From Cryobacterium glucosi (GTDB taxonomy: Bacteria > Actinomycetota > Actinomycetes > Actinomycetales > Microbacteriaceae), in the NCBI RefSeq assembly GCF_004402235.1, contig NZ_SOFS01000012.1, positions 124,001 through 188,000 on the forward strand: a stretch of DNA of 64,000 nt, read 5' to 3'. The notes under the pieces are model-generated. The model was not told the DNA's origin, made no database searches, and saw nothing but the letters and a program-made list of their open reading frames with translations. The translations under genes were made by a program, and so were the position numbers. The stretch's first letter is position 1, and the number at the start of each line of letters is the position of its first letter. Below, piece by piece: positions 3,111-44,767 of the stretch.

Positions 3111-4271
3111 ATGAGCGCCACAGCCAAGCGTGTGATCGGGCTCGTCCTCGCGGGCGTGCTCGTCGTCGGCGTGGTCATCGTCGTGGTCGGCGGTCGCCTG
3201 TTCGGAGCACCGACAGGGACGGCTCCGGTGACCACGGACCTCGCTGTCGTCCACGGGGTCATCGGCTCGGAGAAGAAGCCGTTCTTCGACGACCCGGCCG
3301 TCCGGGCGGTCTTCGCCGAGAAGGGCCTCGACGTCGAGGTCGTGACGGCGGGATCACGCCAGATCGCCACATCCGTCGACCTCACCGGCGTCGATTTCGT
3401 GTTCCCGTCCTCCGCGCCCGCCGCCGAGAAGATCCGGCGCGAAGCCGGGGCGCGCAGCGTGTTCTCCCCGTTCTACTCGCCGCTCGCGATCGCGACCTTC
3501 ACGCCGATCGTGGCCCTCCTGCAGTCCGCGGGGATCGCGAACCAGGACGCCGCGGGCACCTGGCACCTGAACGTCGCGGAATACCTCAAGGCCGTCGCCG
3601 CGGGAACCCGCTGGAATCAGCTCCCCGGTGCGGCGGCGAGCTACAACAGCTCCCGTTCGATCCTGATCTCCAGCACGGACATCCGCCAGTCGAACTCAGC
3701 GGCCATGTACCTTGCGATCGCGTCCTACGTCGCCAACGGGAACAGCGTCATCAGCTCCGCCGACGCGGAGGCCGCCGTCATCGACCCGATGGCCGCGCTC
3801 TTCCTCGAGCAGGGCTTTTCGGCCTCCTCCTCCGAGGCACCATTCGAGGACTACCTCTCCCAGGGAATCGGCTCGAAACCGCTCGTGATGGTCTACGAGG
3901 CACAGTTCCTCGGCCGGCAGATGAGCGTCACCGGCCGCAGCGCCATCACCCCTGACATGGTCCTGATGTATCCGGACCCGACCGTGCTCTCCAAACACAC
4001 GGTGGTCCCGCTGTCCGAGCAGGGAACCCAGGTCGGCGAACTCCTCCAGTCCGACCCCCGCCTCGCCCGGCTCGCGGCGCAGTACGGGTTCCGGCCCGCC
4101 GACCCGGCCGTGTTCACGGCAGCCCTCGCCGGCAACGGCCTCGCGGCGCCCGCAAGCCCCGTCAACGTCATCGAACCGCCGAGCTACGAGACGCTCGAGG
4201 CGATGATCACGACCATCAGCGGGCGGTACGACACCCCTCTTGCCTCACCAGACGCCAACGTCGACAAATGA
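3111..4271 (+). CDS. Membrane-anchored solute-binding-like protein of the TelA cluster
   Basis: 386 residues. An N-terminal hydrophobic segment (about residues 7-30, no lipobox) is followed by an extracytoplasmic domain that reads like a periplasmic binding-protein fold (DFVFPSSAPAAEKIRREAGARS, FSPFYSPLAIATF). It was not assigned to a named family. No ABC permease or ATPase lies nearby; instead it is the first gene of a unit with a TelA protein, a binding-domain/VWA lipoprotein and an XpaC-like protein. A role as an outer-surface sensor or partner of the VWA lipoprotein is inference. The next gene starts 46 bases after its stop. Confidence 0.7.
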   Translation: MSATAKRVIGLVLAGVLVVGVVIVVVGGRLFGAPTGTAPVTTDLAVVHGVIGSEKKPFFDDPAVRAVFAEKGLDVEVVTAGSRQIATSVDLTGVDFVFPSSAPAAEKIRREAGARSVFSPFYSPLAIATFTPIVALLQSAGIANQDAAGTWHLNVAEYLKAVAAGTRWNQLPGAAASYNSSRSILISSTDIRQSNSAAMYLAIASYVANGNSVISSADAEAAVIDPMAALFLEQGFSASSSEAPFEDYLSQGIGSKPLVMVYEAQFLGRQMSVTGRSAITPDMVLMYPDPTVLSKHTVVPLSEQGTQVGELLQSDPRLARLAAQYGFRPADPAVFTAALAGNGLAAPASPVNVIEPPSYETLEAMITTISGRYDTPLASPDANVDK

Positions 4272-4317
4272 CCAGACGAACACCCGCCGAACGATCACCC
4301 GGAGACCAAGGAGCACC

Positions 4318-5559
4318 ATGGCAGACTCATCCCTCGATCTGAGCACTCCCACACCGGGCGAGAGGCCGGCCGCCGCTGCGACGACAGCACCGCGCGTCGA
4401 CACCGGACTTGTGCTCGTGCCGCCGAACGCTGTCCCGGACATCGGTGGCACCCAGGCCAGCGCGATGATGCCGATCGACGACGCCCGCACTGAGGAACTC
4501 GCCGGACGCGCCAGGGCCTTCGTCGCCGACCTCATCGACCGCGATCCCTCGGCCCCGGAATTCCAGAAGAAGATCTCGGACGTGGCCCAGATGGGCCGGG
4601 ACGAGATCCGGGCCGCGTCCGAGGTCAGCAACCGGATGCTCCAGCGCCCGGTCGCAGCGCTTGCCGCCGCGCGCGGAAAAGGCGACGAGGCCGACGCGCA
4701 ACGGCGCGTCGCCAGCACACTCGTCGAACTGCGCGGAACGATCGAAGACCTTGACCCGTCCAGGGCCGACGGCGGGGTCGCCCAGTTCCTCCTGAACCTG
4801 ATCCCGTTCCGGGACAAGCTCCGCAGCTATTTCGCCCGGTACGCCTCCGCACAGAGCCAGCTCAACAAGATCATCCACTCGCTTCAGAACGGCCAGGACG
4901 CCCTTCTCAAGGACAATGCGGCGGTCGAGGGGGAAAAGGTGCGGCTCTGGGAGACGATGAATCGCCTGCAGGAGTACGCCCTCCTCACGAGCGCCCTCGA
5001 CACCCAACTGGTGGAACAGATCGACACGGTCAGGACGACCGACCCGGCCAGGGCCGACGCGCTCACGAGCGATCTCCTCTTCACGATCCGACAGAAGCAC
5101 CAGGACCTGCTCACCCAGCTCGCCGTGAGCGCCCAGGGCTACCTCGCCCTCGACGTCGTGCGGAAGAACAACGTCGAACTCATCAAGGGCGTCGAACGGG
5201 CAACGACGACGACCATATCCGCCCTGCGCACGGCCGTGATCGTGGCACAGGCACTGGCCAACCAGAAGCTCGTCCTCGACCAGATCACCGCCCTCAACAC
5301 GACGACCTCGAACCTGATCGTCTCGACCTCGCAGATGCTCAAGACCCAGTCTGTCGCCATCAGCGAGCAGTCGGCATCCGCGACCATCAGCCTCGAATCG
5401 TTGGAAACGGCCTTCCAGAACATCTACGAGACCATGGACGCCCTGGACAGCTACAAGCTCAAGGCGGTCGCGACGATGGCCCAGACGGTCGACACCCTTC
5501 AGACCCGCCTGGCCGAGGCAACCGCATACCTCGAGCGAGCCCGGCCGGAAGCCCACTGA
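4318..5559 (+). CDS. Toxic-anion-resistance protein, TelA family
   Basis: 413 residues, close to the family's usual length of about 380. TelA/KlaA/YaaN proteins are cytosolic, mostly helical proteins linked to resistance to tellurite and other stresses; their mechanism is unresolved. Typical features are the N-terminal ELAGRARAFVADLIDRD region, helical NLIPFRDKLRSYFARY and the QNGQDALLKDNAAVEGEK region near the middle. The start at 4318 follows a strong AAGGAG site; an upstream in-frame ATG at 4240 overlaps the previous gene. Only two bases separate its stop from the next gene. Tellurite resistance in this organism is not shown by the sequence. Confidence 0.9.
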   Translation: MADSSLDLSTPTPGERPAAAATTAPRVDTGLVLVPPNAVPDIGGTQASAMMPIDDARTEELAGRARAFVADLIDRDPSAPEFQKKISDVAQMGRDEIRAASEVSNRMLQRPVAALAAARGKGDEADAQRRVASTLVELRGTIEDLDPSRADGGVAQFLLNLIPFRDKLRSYFARYASAQSQLNKIIHSLQNGQDALLKDNAAVEGEKVRLWETMNRLQEYALLTSALDTQLVEQIDTVRTTDPARADALTSDLLFTIRQKHQDLLTQLAVSAQGYLALDVVRKNNVELIKGVERATTTTISALRTAVIVAQALANQKLVLDQITALNTTTSNLIVSTSQMLKTQSVAISEQSASATISLESLETAFQNIYETMDALDSYKLKAVATMAQTVDTLQTRLAEATAYLERARPEAH

Positions 5560-5561
5560 GC

Positions 5562-7163
5562 ATGCTTCGCCTCCTGAGGAGCTTCGGCGTGGTCGCGGTC
5601 GCGGCGCTGCTGCTGGCGGGCTGCACCGTTGCGCAGCCGAACGAGCAGGACGGCCTGCCCAACGACGCCACGACTCTTCGGGTCCTTGCGGGCAGCGAGG
5701 TCAAGGATATGGCTCCGATCCTGGAGTCCGCGGCCGCAGACAAGGGAATCCGGGTGGTCTTCGACTACACCGGCACCCTCGCCGGCACGGAACTCGTCGC
5801 ATCCGGTCGTGCCGCCGGTCGCTACGACGCGACGTGGTTCCCGAACAACCGCTACCTGTCGCTGCTTCCCGGGGCGGCCAAGGCCGTCTCCTCGAGCGTC
5901 AAGATCATGAGCTCCCCGGTCGTCCTCGGGCTTCGGCCCGCAGTGGCGGCGCGGCTCGGCTGGGACTCCGCCCCGCCGACCTGGGCGGACCTCGCCACCG
6001 CCGCTGCCGACGGTGAATTCACATACGGCATGACCAATCCCGCGGCCTCGAACTCCGGGTTCAGCGCCCTCGTGGCGGTCGCGACGGCACTGTCCGGAAC
6101 GGGAACCGCGCTCACCGATGCGGACGTCACTGCGGTCGGTCCTGAGCTGACCCGGTTCTTCTCCGGGCAGAAACTGACCGCCGGGTCCTCCGGCTTCCTT
6201 GCTGACAAATTCGTCGCAGACCCCACCCTCGTCGACGGCGTCATCAACTACGAGTCCGTACTCCTCGGTCTCGCCGGCAAGGGTGCACCGCTCACGATCG
6301 TCCGGCCGACCGACGGAGTCGTCACGAGCGACTATCCGCTCACCCTGCTGGCCTCGGCCGACACGGGCAAGCGTCCACTCTTCGACACCCTGACGGCCTG
6401 GCTCACCACTGACGCCGTACAGAAGCGAATCGTGTCGGAGACCCACCGTCGGCCAGGCGTTCCCGGGATCGACACCGGGTCGGCCTTCCCGGCCGGCATC
6501 CTCTTCGAGACGCCGTTCCCGAACACGCTGGACGTCGCCAACACCCTGATCGCGACCTACCTCGACACGGTGCGGGCTCCCGCGCAGACGCTCTTCGTGC
6601 TCGATACCTCCGGGTCGATGGCGGGGGAGCGGCTCACCGCGCTCCAACAGGCGCTCAAGAACCTCGCCGGGGCAGATTCCTCGACGACGGGCGGTTTTGC
6701 CGCGTTCCGCAACCGTGAGCGCGTGACCCTGATCCCGTTCAGCACCGCCCCGGATACCCCGACGATCGTCGACGTGCCTGCGGCGGACAAGACCGAGGCC
6801 CTGCAACGGATTCGCGATGTCGCGGATGGACTCTCCGCAGACGGCGGCACGGCGATCTATGACTCGCTGGAACGGGCGTATGCCCTCGCGCGGCAGCAGA
6901 AGGCCGAGCGGCCGGATACCTTCGTCTCGATCGTGCTCATGACCGATGGTGAGAACACCGACGGTGCAACGGCGAAGGACTTCTCGGACTACTACGCGAC
7001 CCAGGGTGCGGATACCCGGTCCATCGCGACCTACGTCGTTCTCTTCGGCAATGGCAACGTCGATGAGCTCACGAGCGTGGCGAAGCTCACGGGCGGGCAG
7101 GCCTTCGACGCGCTGAACGGCGACCTGTCGAGCGCGTTCCAGGACATTCGTGGGTACCAGTAG
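5562..7163 (+). CDS. Solute-binding and von Willebrand factor A domain lipoprotein
   Basis: 533 residues. A lipoprotein signal with lipobox LLLAGC (cysteine about residue 21) is followed by an extracellular solute-binding-like region (RVLAGSEVKDM, then SPVVLGLRP and NPAASNSGFSAL; about residues 35-320) and a C-terminal VWA domain. The metal-ion-dependent adhesion site DTSGS begins at Asp348, and the later MTDGENTDG motif completes it. The protein is therefore surface-anchored with a metal-dependent protein-binding module. It is packed between the TelA gene (2-base gap) and the XpaC-like gene (14-base overlap). Its partner is unknown. Confidence 0.88.
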   Translation: MLRLLRSFGVVAVAALLLAGCTVAQPNEQDGLPNDATTLRVLAGSEVKDMAPILESAAADKGIRVVFDYTGTLAGTELVASGRAAGRYDATWFPNNRYLSLLPGAAKAVSSSVKIMSSPVVLGLRPAVAARLGWDSAPPTWADLATAAADGEFTYGMTNPAASNSGFSALVAVATALSGTGTALTDADVTAVGPELTRFFSGQKLTAGSSGFLADKFVADPTLVDGVINYESVLLGLAGKGAPLTIVRPTDGVVTSDYPLTLLASADTGKRPLFDTLTAWLTTDAVQKRIVSETHRRPGVPGIDTGSAFPAGILFETPFPNTLDVANTLIATYLDTVRAPAQTLFVLDTSGSMAGERLTALQQALKNLAGADSSTTGGFAAFRNRERVTLIPFSTAPDTPTIVDVPAADKTEALQRIRDVADGLSADGGTAIYDSLERAYALARQQKAERPDTFVSIVLMTDGENTDGATAKDFSDYYATQGADTRSIATYVVLFGNGNVDELTSVAKLTGGQAFDALNGDLSSAFQDIRGYQ

Positions 7164-7788
7164 CGTGTCGCGGTGGCTCGCCTCCACGAAGAACATCGTG
7201 GGCTCGGTAGTCGGCATCGCGACCCTCGGCGCGCACGTCGCCGTCGGCCTCGGTCCGCTGTGGCCCGTTGTCGTCGTCGCGATGTACGCGGTCGGCGCGC
7301 TCGTCGCACCGCGCGACAGGGTGGACCTGCGGCCGGGACCACTGCATGGAGAGGGGGGAGTGGCGTCAGCCGCGGACCTTGCTGCCCAGCTGGCCGTGCT
7401 GAGGAGATCGATGACGGCGGAGAACCGCCGCCTGCCGGACGAAGCGACCTCGAGGCTCGCCCGAATCCTGGATGCCCTCGATCAGGTCATCGCCCGCTGG
7501 ACGGACCTGACCGAAGCGGCCGATCAGGCTCACACGGTCGAGCAGATGATCCTCGACTACCTGCCCACGTCGATTCAGCGGTTCCTGAACCTGCCGCGGA
7601 GCTTTGCGATCGCAAGCCGGGTCGAAGGGAAGAAGACGGCTGAGGACGAACTGATCGAGCAGTTGGACATCCTCGAGACGGAGAGCGATCGCATCCGCAC
7701 CGCACTCTACGCGAAAGACCTCGCGGCGCTCGAAGACCAGAGTCGTTTCCTGCGTGAGAAATTCGGCCGATCCGAACTGGACCTCTGA
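7150..7788 (+). CDS. XpaC-like membrane protein paired with TelA
   Basis: 212 residues. Two hydrophobic stretches lie near the N-terminus (about residues 14-60), followed by a helical cytosolic domain ending in FLREKFGRSELDL. The arrangement matches the XpaC (5-bromo-4-chloroindolyl phosphate hydrolysis) family, which in Bacillus neighbours the TelA homologue yaaN. The start is a GTG inside the VWA gene; a second GTG at 7165 is also possible. The C-terminal domain (residues about 95-212) is visibly related to the C-terminus of the protein at 42146-42967. The stop is one base from the convergent DHFR-like gene. Confidence 0.72.
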   Translation: MGTSSVSRWLASTKNIVGSVVGIATLGAHVAVGLGPLWPVVVVAMYAVGALVAPRDRVDLRPGPLHGEGGVASAADLAAQLAVLRRSMTAENRRLPDEATSRLARILDALDQVIARWTDLTEAADQAHTVEQMILDYLPTSIQRFLNLPRSFAIASRVEGKKTAEDELIEQLDILETESDRIRTALYAKDLAALEDQSRFLREKFGRSELDL

Positions 7789-7789
7789 T

Positions 7790-8419
7790 TCAGGCGAGCC
7801 CGGGCAGGGGGACCGGCGGCGCCGGTGCGACGGGGGCCGCTGGGCGATAGGTCGCGATGATGACACCCGTGCTCGTCGTCGTGCTGTCGACGAGGTCGAG
7901 GGATGCCGAGGGGCCACCGTCCGGGAAGAGGCGTCGACCGGTGCCGAGCACCAGGGGGTGGATCAGGAGCGTGTACTGGTCGATCAGGCCCCAGCGCATC
8001 AGTGCACGCACGAGCTCGCCGCTGCCGAGGATCACGATGTCCTTGCCGGGCTGCTGGCGCAGTTCCGCGACGGTCGTCGTCGCCTCACCGCTCAGGAGGA
8101 TCGAGTTGTTCCAGGCCAGGGGGCCGGGGAGGGTCATCGACGTCACGTACTTCGGGATGTTGTTGATCACCTCGGTATACGGGTTCTCCAGGGTCATCGC
8201 CGGCCAGATCGAAGCGAAATCCGCGTACGTCTTGCGTCCGAAGAGCAGGGCGCCGGCATCGCCGATTCCCGCGGCCATGACGCTGCCCATCACCGAGTCG
8301 GCATAGGGCTGGGCCCAGCCGCCGAGGTCGAAGCCGTCCCGGCGATCCTCGTTCGCCCGGCCGGGCGCCTGCATCACGCCATCGAGGGTCACGCTGTTGG
8401 TGACCACGATTCTGCTCAT
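7790..8419 (-). CDS. Dihydrofolate reductase-like (RibD C-terminal) protein
   Basis: 209 residues. The protein has the RibD_C/DHFR-like fold: N-terminal MSRIVVTNSVTLDGVMQAPG, LLFGRKTYADF in the middle, and NADPH-site-like DIVILGSGELVRALM towards the C-terminus. These stand-alone proteins are probable NADPH-dependent reductases of unknown substrate, not the essential folate enzyme. The start at 8419 follows AAAGGA; an upstream in-frame start at 8443 lacks such a site. It diverges from an ArsR-type regulator across a gap with two inverted repeats. Confidence 0.88.
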   Translation of the reverse strand: MSRIVVTNSVTLDGVMQAPGRANEDRRDGFDLGGWAQPYADSVMGSVMAAGIGDAGALLFGRKTYADFASIWPAMTLENPYTEVINNIPKYVTSMTLPGPLAWNNSILLSGEATTTVAELRQQPGKDIVILGSGELVRALMRWGLIDQYTLLIHPLVLGTGRRLFPDGGPSASLDLVDSTTTSTGVIIATYRPAAPVAPAPPVPLPGLA

Positions 8420-8458
8420 CGAAATCCTTTCCTCCGTCTGCAAACTTACTGCCCGATG

Positions 8459-8476
8459 CCGAATCTCCTAATTCGG
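8459..8476. promoter_or_regulatory. Inverted repeat CCGAAT-N6-ATTCGG, candidate operator
   Basis: Perfect 6-base arms lie in the 134-base divergent gap between the DHFR-like gene and the HTH regulator gene. The location suits an autoregulatory operator for the ArsR-type protein. The function is inferred from position only. Confidence 0.35.
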
Positions 8477-8518
8477 GGGACAACAGATGACGCCTGCTCC
8501 AGACAGCCTTTCACCTTC

Positions 8519-8536
8519 TTGACAAAAAATATTGTC
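8519..8536 (+). promoter_or_regulatory. -35-like TTGACA overlapping a GACAA-N6-TTGTC inverted repeat
   Basis: TTGACA (8519-8524) is a consensus -35 hexamer 30 bases before the regulator start. It overlaps an AT-rich inverted repeat, GACAA-AAAATA-TTGTC (8521-8536). The matching -10 (AAGGCT, 17 bases on) is poor. The site could be a repressor site over the regulator's promoter. Confidence 0.35.
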
Positions 8537-8553
8537 GGTGGAAGGCTGGTTGC

Positions 8554-9174
8554 ATGCTCGAAGTCGCCGTCATCGACACCGCCGGAGCGGCGGCAGCGTC
8601 GCTCGAGCCCACACGGAGCCGGCTGCTCGCCGAGCTCGGCGAACCGGGTTCGGCCACGACCCTGGCGGCCAGGCTCGGCCTGCCGCGCCAGAAGGTCAAC
8701 TATCACTTGCGCGAACTGGAACGCCACGGTCTCATCGAACTCGTCGCCGAGCGTCGCAAGGGGAACATGACCGAGCGGGTGATGCGGGCGACGGCACAGT
8801 CATTCGTGATCTCGCCAACGGCGCTCGGGGGAGTGGCTCCCGATCCGCGGCGTGGCGTGAATGAATTCTCGGCGCGCTGGATGCTCGCGGTTGCCGCCCG
8901 GCTCGTCCAGGAGGTCGGAATCCTGCTCGACCGCGCGGGGCGCGCACACCGCCCGCTTGCCACATTCACAATCGACAGCGAGCTGCGCTTCGCTTCGGCG
9001 GCCGATCGTGCCGATTTCAGCGCGGAACTCGCTCTCACGGTCGCCACCCTCGTCACGCGCTACGACGCGCCGCAGTCCCCGGGCGGTCGCGCCCACCGGC
9101 TCGTCCTCGCGCTGCACCCGAGCATCACCCGACCTCCGGAAGAACCCGGTAACCCAGCAGGCAAGGAGAACTGA
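8554..9174 (+). CDS. ArsR-type winged-helix transcriptional regulator
   Basis: 206 residues. The N-terminal winged helix-turn-helix (about residues 15-75) includes SRLLAELGEPGSATTLAARL and a recognition helix LPRQKVNYHLRELERHGLIE. The remaining 120 residues are a helical domain of unknown ligand. No ArsR metal-binding cysteine pair is seen, so metal sensing is unlikely. The stop is one base from the start of an SRPBCC protein; such regulator/SRPBCC pairs are common in Actinobacteria. It probably controls this pair and perhaps the divergent DHFR-like gene. Confidence 0.87.
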   Translation: MLEVAVIDTAGAAAASLEPTRSRLLAELGEPGSATTLAARLGLPRQKVNYHLRELERHGLIELVAERRKGNMTERVMRATAQSFVISPTALGGVAPDPRRGVNEFSARWMLAVAARLVQEVGILLDRAGRAHRPLATFTIDSELRFASAADRADFSAELALTVATLVTRYDAPQSPGGRAHRLVLALHPSITRPPEEPGNPAGKEN

Positions 9175-9175
9175 C

Positions 9176-9862
9176 ATGAGCAAGGACTTCGAGATCGTCG
9201 TCGAGGGGGAGTTCCCCGGCGATCCTGAGCAGATGTGGGACGCCATCACCCAGAACACGGCGGCGTGGCTGTTCCCGACGGACGACATGCCCGGGGTTGA
9301 CCTGGTCTCGGAGCGCCCGACCCATCACGTGAATCGGATGGAGGGACCCGACGGCTGGTTCAACCAGCTCGAACAGGTCATCGAACCGCGTCCGGGTGGG
9401 CATTCGTTCCTCCGCTGGGTGCACAGCGGCGTCATCCAGGACGACTGGGACAACCAGTACGACAGCGCGAGCAAGCACACCGTGTTCTACCTGCACACCC
9501 TGTCCGAGTACCTCGAGCACTTCGCCGGCCGCAGTGCCGTCTACGCCGATGTCCAGGGACCGGAGGCCTCTTGCGGTCCCGAGGGATTCGAGACGCTCCG
9601 GAGCGCACTGGGTTTGACTCCCACGTCGGCCGTGGGGGAGACCGTCACCGTCGCCCTGCCCGGAGTCCCGGCGGGAACGACAAGCGTCGACTGGAACGCA
9701 GAGCACTTCATCGGCCTCCGCACGGCCGACGCTCTCTACCGATTCTTCGGTCGGAACGCCTTCGGTGCTGTCGTCGGGCTGACCGTGCACCGGTTCGGCG
9801 ACATCGGGAGCGCGGGACTTCCCGAGGACTGGAAGACCTGGCTCGACGCCCTGTATGGCTGA
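9176..9862 (+). CDS. SRPBCC (START/AHSA1-like) domain protein
   Basis: 228 residues. The opening EIVVEGEFPGDPEQMWDAIT followed by alternating strands with W and P residues is typical of the AHSA1/SRPBCC hydrophobic-pocket fold. A GGAG ribosome-binding site precedes the ATG, which lies one base after the regulator's stop, so the two are cotranscribed. Ligand and activity are unknown; cytosolic. Confidence 0.82.
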   Translation: MSKDFEIVVEGEFPGDPEQMWDAITQNTAAWLFPTDDMPGVDLVSERPTHHVNRMEGPDGWFNQLEQVIEPRPGGHSFLRWVHSGVIQDDWDNQYDSASKHTVFYLHTLSEYLEHFAGRSAVYADVQGPEASCGPEGFETLRSALGLTPTSAVGETVTVALPGVPAGTTSVDWNAEHFIGLRTADALYRFFGRNAFGAVVGLTVHRFGDIGSAGLPEDWKTWLDALYG

Positions 9863-9935
9863 CGCCGGTCGGGAAGCAACGTCCGGGCACGTCGGACCTC
9901 TGGAAACCGTGTGCCTCGCGCGCTACCGTGGCAGC

Positions 9936-10286
9936 ATGAGCGCAATGGATCTGGCCACCCTCCGCCGCCTGGCCGCGGAGGGCAACGAAGAGGCCGCGAA
10001 CCGGCTCGCCGAACTCGCGGCGACTCGCGGCGACCTGGCCGAACTGCGCGAGCTGGTAGATTCCGGCAACGAACTCGCCGGCGAGAAGCTCGCGCAGCTC
10101 GCGGGGGAGCGCGGCGACATCGACGAGTTGCGCCGTCTGGTCGGCGCGGGAAACGAACTGGCGGCAGACAAGCTGGCCCAGTTCGCCGCGGCGCGGGAGG
10201 ACATCGACGAACTCAGCCGTCTCGCCGACGAGGGCAACGAGGTTGCTGCGACACTCCTGACCCAGCTCATCCGTGGAACCGGGTAG
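9936..10286 (+). CDS. Protein made wholly of four 28-residue helical repeats
   Basis: 116 residues: a four-residue start (MSAM) followed by exactly four 28-residue units with no other sequence. The unit pattern is D(L/I)xxLxxLxxxGNExAxxxLxxL, with the GNE triplet at positions 12-14 of every unit, which suggests a two-helix solenoid of the Sel1/TPR-like or LRV kind. The ATG at 9936 is chosen because the upstream 27 codons break the repeat pattern and a TACCGT box lies six bases before it (leaderless-type start). Proteins with such repeats usually bind other proteins; the partner is unknown. Confidence 0.75.
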   Translation: MSAMDLATLRRLAAEGNEEAANRLAELAATRGDLAELRELVDSGNELAGEKLAQLAGERGDIDELRRLVGAGNELAADKLAQFAAAREDIDELSRLADEGNEVAATLLTQLIRGTG

Positions 10287-42145: not shown

Positions 42146-42967
42146 TTACGAGAGATCGAGACTGGACCTGGCGAAACGAGCGGAGAGGAACCGGCCGTTG
42201 ATCAGGAGACCTTCGGCATCATCACGGACGGCCGCGTCGTACATCTCGGTGACGGCCGTCTCGAGAACGGTCAACTGAGCGGCCAGTGCCGTGTCAGGCG
42301 TGGTGCCGTCGGCCAAGACGTGATTGTGCGCCCACTCGGCAGGGAGCGCAAGATACGTGCGCAGAGTCTCGGGGAGATACGAGGTCGCCGTTCGCCTGGC
42401 CGTCATCTCGGCTTCCAGGTTGCCCGCCAGCCTCGGCAGTGTCTCCAGCAGCAGCCCGGTGATCCGACGGACGGCCGTCACGGCTTCCGGCGGGAGACGG
42501 GACTCCACCCGCGCCGGAAGGCTTCTCAGATCGACGTCGAGGGTCGCATCGGCAACCCGTACGTCCGACCCTGTCGACTCGATGCCGAGGGTGTGGAGTG
42601 CGTGCGCCGCCGCGGAAGCCTCGCCCGCGGCATCCCCCGCCACGGCGGCGATACGGCCGGCGAAGACGCTGAGCCATTCGCCGAGGGTCAGGGTCCGCCG
42701 TGAGATCACGACGCCGCCGGAAACCTTCTGGGCCTGGGCGAGGAACCGGGGTCCCGCGAGGTGAGTGAGGGTCAGGGTCTCACTGTTCGCCCCAAGTCGA
42801 ATCTCACGGATGGACCCGGGCTTGCCGGCCAGGCGGTCTGCCAGCGAGCGGTTCCGTTCCACCGTCAGGACACTCGCGGCCACCGGTGCGGACAGCGCAC
42901 GTATGGCTCCGTCGGCGAGGCCGGCCAGAAACGCCTGGGGGTCGGCCGTGGCTTGCTCGAGGGTCAC
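42146..42967 (-). CDS. Cytosolic protein with XpaC-like C-terminal domain
   Basis: 273 residues with no membrane segment. The first 140 residues are unassigned. The last 125 align by eye with the C-terminus of the XpaC-like protein at 7150-7788: both have LP-EA...., YLP..L..YLxLP, a QL..LET stretch, and end RFL..(K/R)F.RSxLDL. GTG start within GTGA, overlapping the stop of the upstream YbjQ-like gene, so it is the third gene of a three-gene operon. Function unknown. Confidence 0.75.
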   Translation of the reverse strand: MTLEQATADPQAFLAGLADGAIRALSAPVAASVLTVERNRSLADRLAGKPGSIREIRLGANSETLTLTHLAGPRFLAQAQKVSGGVVISRRTLTLGEWLSVFAGRIAAVAGDAAGEASAAAHALHTLGIESTGSDVRVADATLDVDLRSLPARVESRLPPEAVTAVRRITGLLLETLPRLAGNLEAEMTARRTATSYLPETLRTYLALPAEWAHNHVLADGTTPDTALAAQLTVLETAVTEMYDAAVRDDAEGLLINGRFLSARFARSSLDLS

Positions 42968-43788
42968 CAGCGGCCACCGTCCGTCAGGGGAAGCACGAGG
43001 CTCGGAGTGGCGATGACGTGATCCTCGCGCAGTTCGCGGACCGCGCTTCCGATCGCGAAGAATTCCGTGGTGTGCCCGCCCCACCGGTGCGGCAGCGACA
43101 GGAGTTGCACTCCGACGATGCCGTCAGCCGCGAGGGTTTCGGCCTCCGTCTGCATTCTCCCCATGGCCAGTTCGCGAGCGTCGTACAGCGCCTCCGTGAA
43201 TTGGGTGATCTCGACGTTCGCTCCCAGGCTGCTGAGGGCGGCTATCGTTCCCCGGTGGGCGATGTGATAGACGCAGGTTCCCATCACGAGGCCGAGCGGT
43301 GCGTAGCCCGACTGGATCAGGGTCCAGAAGTCCTGGCCGGAGAGGTCCGAGGTGAACGGAAGACCCTTGTTGTTGCGCCAGGTACCGCTCGCCGGGGCGT
43401 GGTCTGCCACGACGGCTGTTCCGATGGCCACGAATTCGGCAAGGTTGTTGCCGTAGTCCTTGAACTCGATCTCGAGCCGAACGCCCACGATGCCGTCTGC
43501 GCCCAGGGCGTCGGCCTCCGCCTCCATGCGCGTCATCGCGAGTTCCCGAGCGTGGTACATCGCGGCACTGAGCTTGTCGAGCTCCATGTTCTGGCCCCAG
43601 CGTCGCGTCTGGATCCCGACGTGGTAGACGCTCGAACCGAGCACGAGTCCCACCGGGCGGAATCCGGCTTGCCGCACCAGGAGGAACTCGTTGACGGACA
43701 GGTCGGACGTGAACAGATGCTTCTTGCCGTCGGCCAGGCGCGCCCGGGCGCTCGCCGAGAGGGAGACGCCGGAGAATGGGTCCGTCAT
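42964..43788 (-). CDS. Protein with two YbjQ-type (heavy-metal-binding, PF01906-like) domains
   Basis: 274 residues. Two related units (about residues 22-130 and 143-262) each carry FTSDLS, GLVxGxxVYH, YxARELAMxRMxxEAxxLxADGIVGV and EF(V/F)AIG(T/S)AV. YbjQ proteins form pentameric rings; the heavy-metal label is historical and no metal-ligand cluster is seen here. It starts 40 bases after the stop of another double-YbjQ gene. Role unknown. Confidence 0.82.
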   Translation of the reverse strand: MTDPFSGVSLSASARARLADGKKHLFTSDLSVNEFLLVRQAGFRPVGLVLGSSVYHVGIQTRRWGQNMELDKLSAAMYHARELAMTRMEAEADALGADGIVGVRLEIEFKDYGNNLAEFVAIGTAVVADHAPASGTWRNNKGLPFTSDLSGQDFWTLIQSGYAPLGLVMGTCVYHIAHRGTIAALSSLGANVEITQFTEALYDARELAMGRMQTEAETLAADGIVGVQLLSLPHRWGGHTTEFFAIGSAVRELREDHVIATPSLVLPLTDGGRW

Positions 43789-43828
43789 GGGGTGGTCGTC
43801 CGTTCGCTCGTCGTGGGTGCTGGGGAGA

Positions 43829-44767
43829 TCATCGTTCAGGCGTTCGTGGGCGTTGCGGGGAATCGCGCAGGGGCATCACGGTCAGGGGCGGAGGAACGGC
43901 CGACCGGTTCCGCGCGCGCGGCAACGCCATCAGGGTGGTGCCGACGACGACGAATTCGGCGTGCAGGTCTCGCGCATCCGAGCCGCCGCACGCGGTGTCG
44001 AACTCGGACAGCGTGGTGTCGGTCACGACGAGATCTGCCGCACCCGTGTGCGTGACCCGGCGCGCGAGCCGCTCCCTGGCTTCGCGCCGCGCCGCCTGGA
44101 CCAGCCTGGTCATCCCGGTCACTTCGCCGTTGATCCAACTGGTGCGCTGCTGCTGAAGCTGCCAATCCTCATGCTTCGTCGACACGGACATCCCGAGCAC
44201 GACACTGTGCGGGAGATATCCGGCCAGGAGAGCCGCGGCGCAGTCTTCTCCGCTCAGGTTGGTGTACCAGGGGTCGGCCGCGGATCCGGGAGAAGGCACG
44301 AGAGAGGAATCCGTGGAGCGCACGGCCGTACCGAGGGCGCTGAATTCCCAGGCCGTGCCCTCGACGCGGGTGCGACGGATGCGAATGTCAACGACTCCGT
44401 GCGCCCCGAGTGCCTGCGCTTCGACGCGCATCCGCTTGAGTGCGCCATACCAGCCGCGTTCGTATGCGCCGACGTAGGGGGCGAAGCTGCCCCAGGTGGA
44501 CCCGCCGCCTGAGGTCGTCACGGGCGAAACCTGGCCTATCGACGATCTCCCCATCTTCGCCCCCGACGTCCACCAGGCACAACCGCTGCCCTTCCACCCG
44601 AGGTTCATGACGGCGCAGCCGAAGACTTCGCCGACGGCGGTCAGCCCGACGCTCTGGATGCTCGCCGCCGCGGCGACCGAGAGCAGCGACCCCGCTGTTC
44701 GACTGGCCTTTTGTCCAGCGATGCGGGCATGCGCAGCAGGCGGCAGTCCCCCCGTCCATTCATCCAC
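43829..44767 (-). CDS. Second double YbjQ-like protein, more diverged
   Basis: 312 residues. Unit one (about residues 15-170) has a YGALKRMRVEAQALGAHGVVDIRI core and a Gly/Ser-rich insertion; unit two (about 180-290) starts YTNLSGEDCAAALLAGYLPHSVVLGMSV and ends HAEFVVVGTTLMAL. It heads the operon with the other YbjQ-like gene and the XpaC-domain gene. GTG at 44767 is taken as the start; another GTG at 44806 is possible, and neither has a clear ribosome-binding site. Confidence 0.75.
   Translation of the reverse strand: MDEWTGGLPPAAHARIAGQKASRTAGSLLSVAAAASIQSVGLTAVGEVFGCAVMNLGWKGSGCAWWTSGAKMGRSSIGQVSPVTTSGGGSTWGSFAPYVGAYERGWYGALKRMRVEAQALGAHGVVDIRIRRTRVEGTAWEFSALGTAVRSTDSSLVPSPGSAADPWYTNLSGEDCAAALLAGYLPHSVVLGMSVSTKHEDWQLQQQRTSWINGEVTGMTRLVQAARREARERLARRVTHTGAADLVVTDTTLSEFDTACGGSDARDLHAEFVVVGTTLMALPRARNRSAVPPPLTVMPLRDSPQRPRTPER

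Follow-up and report, generated by a model that had tools for sequence, protein, structure and literature searches.

The window analysed here, a stretch of 64,000 nucleotides of DNA from Cryobacterium glucosi (contig NZ_SOFS01000012.1, positions 124,001 to 188,000), carries on its minus strand a compact operon of three genes, separated by a 40-nt gap and then by a 4-nt overlap, and, at 3111-7788 on the plus strand, a run of four genes that includes TelA (Table 1). The first two operon products, P0004 and P0003, contain two YbjQ domains each (PF01906, two stretches per protein, with scores of 52.9 and 76.1 bits, respectively, against a Pfam cut-off of 23 bits), bearing out the original prediction of a three-gene operon with four such domains. 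The third product, P0001, is a gene fusion of the third gene of YbjQ operons, which supplies an alpha/beta N-terminal (N) domain, with a helical domain of about 130 C-terminal residues that we call XC and that recurs in P0002, the last product of the TelA run. From the company that the two domains keep in other genomes we consider it probable that P0001 is a two-headed adaptor, made by fusion, that would couple a YbjQ complex to TelA.

A helical domain common to P0001 and P0002

That XC is one homologous domain in the two proteins is established by several comparisons. Residues 141-272 of P0001 and 79-212 of P0002 align by BLASTP with 33% identity over 135 columns (E = 4e-12), the score of their local alignment is 145 as compared with a maximum of 72 in 2000 shuffles, and profiles built from 20 relatives of each protein match one another with a probability of 99.4 and E = 4.5e-22, the control profile of solo N-domain genes (A6) giving E = 0.35 against the P0002-type set. 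The homology that had been proposed for the two C-terminal regions thus holds, in the profile-profile comparison as well as in the pairwise one. An AlphaFold2 model of the whole of P0001 (mean predicted local distance difference test score, pLDDT, of 93.7) has long helices at residues 140-154, 160-179, 184-206, 210-215 and 224-265, and those predicted for P0002 (74-94, 97-115, 124-146, 150-155 and 164-205) correspond to them one-to-one, a comparison made by number and order of helices rather than by superposition and one in which the P0002 model is not independent, because its alignment held P0001-type rows (the P0001 model was built without P0002-type rows). Hydropathy also fits the contrast between a membrane-anchored P0002 and a soluble P0001 that had been drawn, as P0002 contains 15 strongly hydrophobic sequence windows (over 1.6) and P0001 none.

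XC is not covered by Pfam, no match above cut-off being obtained for P0001, P0002 or 20 relatives of each, and for the two proteins themselves NCBIfam, PADLOC and PHROGs gave no family above cut-off either. Neither model found a Foldseek match at E <= 0.001, the resemblances of XC listed by VIA are to ordinary helical bundles among solved structures, with Z under 10, and a sequence search of solved structures with the P0002-type set produced six matches (E 0.0018-0.96) to unrelated proteins. A sub-threshold match to PspAA, seen in 2 of 20 P0002-type members and later only at residues 12-63 of L087, ahead of XC, is a lead only.

Table 1. Genes and domains of the YbjQ operon and of the TelA cluster, in positions of the window
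Feature	Positions	Strand	Description	Evidence
P0007	3111..4271	+	TelA cluster gene 1, hydrophobic N-terminus	no Pfam/NCBIfam match above cut-off
P0006 (TelA)	4318..5559	+	TelA	PF05816 5.8e-86, 289 bits (cut-off 30 bits)
P0005	5562..7163	+	von Willebrand A (VWA) domain at residues 345-515, hydrophobic N-terminus	PF00092 2.4e-12, hydropathy
P0002	7150..7788	+	XC protein with hydrophobic N-terminal part; the XpaC-like protein of the original prediction	
P0001	42146..42967	-	operon gene 3, N-terminal domain plus C-terminal XC domain	no Pfam/NCBIfam match above cut-off
P0001 N domain	42533..42967	-	about residues 1-145, alpha/beta	profile match to 40 solo genes 3.8e-25
P0001 XC domain	42146..42547 (stop codon included)	-	residues 141-273, helical	common to P0002
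P0003	42964..43788	-	operon gene 2, 274 aa, two YbjQ_1 domains	PF01906 3.8e-21, two stretches
P0004	43829..44767	-	operon gene 1, 312 aa, two YbjQ_1 domains	PF01906 6.4e-14, two stretches

The fused third gene of the YbjQ operon

A search of the genome collection for related loci with P0001 as single query found nothing, and an alignment of P0003-type proteins was therefore used instead, which yielded 505 relatives; the locus counts given here cover the best 80 of the 505. Because two of the three operon genes escaped our home-made gene caller, counts were made from stop-bounded reading frames together with profile searches. The 15 top loci (L111-L125) are from Microbacteriaceae genera, except for L125, which is labelled Acidobacteria and placed in the window's family, and the remaining 65 are from other Actinomycetota, with one (L190) a Melainabacteria bin.

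A second YbjQ frame is present at 79 of these 80 loci. At all 15 of the Microbacteriaceae-type loci the gene after P0003 encodes both the N domain and XC, whereas outside the Microbacteriaceae the third gene is an N domain alone at 60 of 65 loci and XC occurs at the YbjQ operon in none of the 65. The solo genes are 124-190 codons long (median 138.5 over the 60 loci, with starts set by script), and the N domains of fused and solo genes match clearly in a profile-profile comparison (Table 1). In a tree of XC comprising 69 rows the 34 fused rows form one side of a single branch with support of 100/98, in an alignment of few columns whose bootstrap had not fully settled, and since the fused copies form one branch the fusion looks to be of single origin. 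Fused genes are found outside the window's family as well, in the f15 genomes (L191, L192).

The N domain, like XC, is without a Pfam model. Searches with 40 solo genes gave no consistent Pfam or NCBIfam family (at best 2 of 40 at E 0.026 and 1 of 40 at E 6.4e-4), no solved structure matched by sequence at E 1, and the UvrB rows that VIA places on the N domain in a search with the whole of P0001 (Z about 5) are too weak to use. We also considered that the N domain might be a worn YbjQ domain and rejected this, as its profile matches neither YbjQ nor XC.

For five of the 65 loci outside the Microbacteriaceae no N-domain match was found, and at three of these (L136, L149 and L153) the gene directly after the YbjQ genes resembles, by eye, a GAF-domain histidine kinase, possibly an alternative YbjQ partner. 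Among the neighbours of the 80 loci, as delimited by the home-made caller and examined for one that would point to a function of the YbjQ operon, no family occurs at more than 10 of 80; the largest are an SDR dehydrogenase in mixed orientations (10 loci) and two genes of one block found in the same nine loci. TelA is a neighbour at 8 of the 80, always downstream and convergent. At one locus TelA is flanked by two fused genes, a second N-XC gene lying beyond it at L113:12033-12830.

The operon genes differ in how well they are conserved. In 249 genomes of the window's family (the family draw) P0003 is 80-88% identical to 11 relatives, and 71-91% identical to the 80 best named relatives, while the identity of P0001 to its relatives in the family draw, 46-59%, is far below this; a conserved P0003 and a faster-changing P0001 are in keeping with roles as core subunit and adaptor, respectively.

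XC beside TelA

The family draw contains 39 TelA genes in 37 genomes, and an XC gene adjoins 31 of the 39 (matched stretches at most 258 nt apart), in 23 cases immediately 3' of TelA on its own strand and in 8 tail-to-tail as part of a fused gene. In the window and in G219 XC lies two genes beyond TelA in a four-gene run, and a profile search places XC near TelA also in clusters of G136 and G020 (L198, L200); of the four TelA genes that remain, two are second copies, in G055 and G178, and two are the TelA genes of G226 and G234. Scoring XC as present where there is a pairwise match to P0001 or P0002 at 1e-3, we count XC in 39 of the 249 genomes, TelA in 37 and both in 34, or 36, 37 and 34 if three weak partial XC matches (G029, G046, G141) are left out. 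The rows of a quick TelA tree cluster by the setting of XC (9 changes as compared with a shuffled mean of 25.3), and the 15 convergent TelA rows need a single change, on a branch that is without support.

The settings themselves are varied. In 14 of the 18 short-XC TelA loci analysed for TerD (out of 23 in the family draw) TerD genes lie on both sides of the TelA-XC pair, and a gene named TerC-like by eye is matched in 9 of those 14; the queries for TerD and TerC had been chosen from L227 by inspection, and those for TerD also match genes annotated TerD in L108. TerD stands beside TelA in two congeners of the window's species (G698 and G702; L227, L229), and no TerD was found in the window with three TerD queries. 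The short-XC loci resemble Ter systems, which combine TerC, TerD and TelA (PMC7824862; the papers given by PMC number are cited for the portions available to us), in that the short XC gene sits between TelA and TerD with more TerD before TelA, and differ from what is seen at the YbjQ operons and four-gene VWA clusters, which carry XC without TerD in the stretches examined. One fused N-XC gene that has no YbjQ neighbours, at L070:7089-8578, does adjoin a TerD gene, the two being tail-to-tail, possibly a second link between XC and Ter.

In the f15 genomes TelA is followed by three tandem XC genes and then by TerD genes (L213, L214, about 7400-10100), and these genomes also have a YbjQ operon whose third gene is fused. 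A weak match to the Rv2743c family (PF25587), at E 5e-4 and 20.2 bits, below the cut-off of 27.7 bits, was obtained for one tandem XC protein (L213:7433-8323), 1 of the 10 proteins scanned, and is a lead only; P0001 and P0002 do not match this family at E 1. Rv2743c we take to be PspM, the partner of PspA in mycobacteria.

A P0007-type gene is also first in the cluster in L081, L105, L106, L198, L200, L208, L209 and L228. The whole run of P0007, TelA, VWA and XC genes recurs in a Sphaerotilus plasmid (L105), in Nonomuraea (L106) and in two genomes of another family (L208, L209); in L198 and L200 the cluster is rearranged with TelA last, and a Deinococcus plasmid (L107) has the gene-1, VWA and XC run without TelA beside it.

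A probable adaptor between YbjQ and TelA, and the alternatives

The association between YbjQ operons and TelA follows the fusion. A full-length P0003-type gene occurs in 12 genomes of the family draw, followed by a fused gene in 12 of 12 (three further genomes have distant, partial P0003 matches only), and the 21 places where fused genes are found divide into 5 adjoining both YbjQ and TelA, 7 adjoining YbjQ only, 3 adjoining TelA only and 6 adjoining neither. The fused gene is tail-to-tail with TelA at 8 of these 21 places and at 8 of the 15 named loci, two sets that overlap, with five contigs of matching length in both, and it is through the shared XC domain that the proposed link between YbjQ operons and TelA stands. 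TelA is present in 17 of the 19 fused-gene genomes of the family draw and in 2 of 2 from f15, 19 of 21 in all. A draw of 256 genomes from the phylum has P0003-type genes in 10 and TelA in 12, with both only in the window's genome. Among the nine other P0003-type genomes neither TelA nor XC occurs in any; in 6 of the 9 a solo N gene (preceding YbjQ genes) and a second YbjQ gene were seen, and in 3 no N gene was recognised. Presence of TelA in 19 of 21 fused as compared with 0 of 9 unfused gives a Fisher probability of 3.8e-6, or 9.5e-5 against the 6 with a recognised N gene, kinship being ignored in both, and from these counts TelA goes with the fusion and not with the YbjQ genes as such.

Because the fusion combines the N domain with what is elsewhere the companion of TelA, the most likely role of P0001 is to couple the YbjQ complex with TelA. 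The N domain would be the normal third subunit of a YbjQ complex widespread in actinomycetes and would dock onto the YbjQ pair, and XC, a helical bundle encoded elsewhere beside TelA, would most likely bind TelA, both dockings being suggested by published properties of TelA, of yaaN/xpaC and of YbjQ. The fusion would then tether TelA to the YbjQ complex, and through this tether a signal perceived by the YbjQ subunits, perhaps envelope damage or a metal, could be passed to TelA. More generally XC would tie TelA to different settings, as a short protein in TerD operons, with a hydrophobic anchor in the VWA cluster and, by fusion to the N domain, at YbjQ. Tentatively, we go further and suggest that XC may be a hitherto undescribed domain dedicated to docking TelA, with TelA a platform re-wired by whatever XC is attached to (TerD operons, a membrane VWA module and, by one fusion, a phylum-wide YbjQ complex); if so, TelA would be the shared output hub of several sensor modules.

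Several observations weigh against the coupling of YbjQ to TelA by P0001. There is no TelA at the window's own YbjQ operon, G016 and G209 carry a fused operon without any TelA, and among the 21 fused genes six lack both YbjQ and TelA as neighbours and three adjoin TelA but not the YbjQ pair. In G234 TelA is present, but XC is found neither by a pairwise search of the genome nor by a profile search of the 12 kb round TelA, and the second TelA copies of G055 and G178, without an adjoining XC, are placed in the tree next to the group of convergent TelA rows. The Fisher probabilities are too small, the family genomes being kin, and TelA cannot be the basic output of the YbjQ operon, as most P0003-type genes outside the family are without it. 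Finally, the tail-to-tail adjacency of TelA and the fused gene may be left over from the event that produced the fusion.

In a rival reading XC would be a helical bundle that associates with itself or with the membrane surface and makes no contact with TelA; its genes would accompany TelA only through the membership of both in envelope-stress islands, and the fusion would have added a generic oligomerisation module to the third YbjQ subunit. The fold searches, which give only common helical-bundle resemblances, are in keeping with this reading, as are the Deinococcus run without TelA beside it and the fused XC of the two TelA-less genomes; we nonetheless find it rather unlikely, because the gene settings in which XC is found with TelA are several and different and the TelA rows cluster by XC setting.

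An XC that is simply a divergent XpaC, which would make the present findings a further setting of the known XpaC-YaaN pair, we regard as unlikely. The gene partnership is the same: xpaC and the TelA-type yaaN form one operon of the sigma-W regulon in Bacillus subtilis (PMC3498285), with like pairs in Listeria (PMC12791056) and Lactococcus (PMC3139573), a pairing of a TelA-type gene with a small one much as at 31 of 39 TelA genes here. The XpaC model PF10112 (cut-off 29.8 bits), however, matches neither P0001 nor P0002 at E 1, none of 20 relatives of each at E 0.1, and none of three tandem-type and three four-gene-type XC proteins at E 0.05, while finding three sub-cut-off places elsewhere in the window's genome; the XpaC-like label once attached to P0002 is thus unsupported by Pfam. 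Moreover, in the short-XC loci the order is TelA and then XC, and XC is in addition fused to a subunit of the YbjQ operon.

A single system made up of the window's two loci, in which the TelA at 4.3 kb would be bound by soluble P0001 and membrane-bound P0002 alike, is improbable in spite of both XC copies, the only two that an XC profile finds in the genome, lying with its one TelA within 40 kb of a single contig, because a congener (G692) has the same four-gene TelA cluster with a single XC match, and hence no fused gene that could be found, and P0001 and P0002 occupy separate regions of the XC tree, with supported branches between them. Within the genus, 4 of 27 genomes contain XC of any kind. 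In the quick TelA tree the TelA of the window pairs with that of L081, apart from the group adjoining fused genes, and this other lineage together with G692 implies that the two loci can be inherited separately. The single multi-locus system of the original prediction is therefore not upheld by G692, the XC and TelA trees and the 9 of 9 P0003-type genomes without XC and TelA, whereas its hint at a common partner, with TelA in that role, survives as the best reading. Within the adaptor reading P0001 may use the TelA present in the window: with TelA, so often adjoining the fused gene, absent from that place, P0001 would either be an orphan or make use of the TelA encoded in the cluster at 3.1-7.8 kb.

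YbjQ subunits and wider context

What is new here is the joining of known module families (YbjQ, TelA and Ter) by N and XC, two domains that Pfam does not model and that are now named. Literature searches turned up no paper joining TelA, XpaC and YbjQ, although a 2012 analysis of Ter, which they did not cover, may contain part of this, and the fusion is not described in the available portions of PMC3498285, PMC12791056, PMC4092069, PMC7824862, PMC3139573 and PMC7159879. In Ter systems TelA proteins have been described as components of structures beneath the membrane (PMC7824862), and a Listeria mutant in lmo1967 (TelA) is reported to be more sensitive to nisin and tellurite (PMC12791056). Both TelA and YbjQ are widespread, their mechanisms are not established, and the fusion in P0001 suggests a concrete and testable physical link between two stress systems hitherto treated separately, with the domains of P0001 offering small soluble constructs for binding tests.

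P0003 and P0004 are like other YbjQ/UPF0145 proteins (PF01906), in that both score above the Pfam cut-off, and unlike them in forming a pair of two-domain proteins in an operon with a third subunit that lacks a Pfam model. The YbjQ structures 1vr4, 2gtc and 1y2i, which are weak sequence matches in our search of solved structures, are listed as pentamers, and metal binding by YbjQ proteins has been predicted (PMC4092069). Relatives of P0004 (window 43829-44767) retain, by eye, cysteines and a C-G...DLHAE-like stretch, possible metal ligands. In genus g8 a separate gene with three YbjQ-like stretches (L193:6497-7633 and L194:5335-6471) lies near genes that resemble, again by eye, glutamine synthetases.

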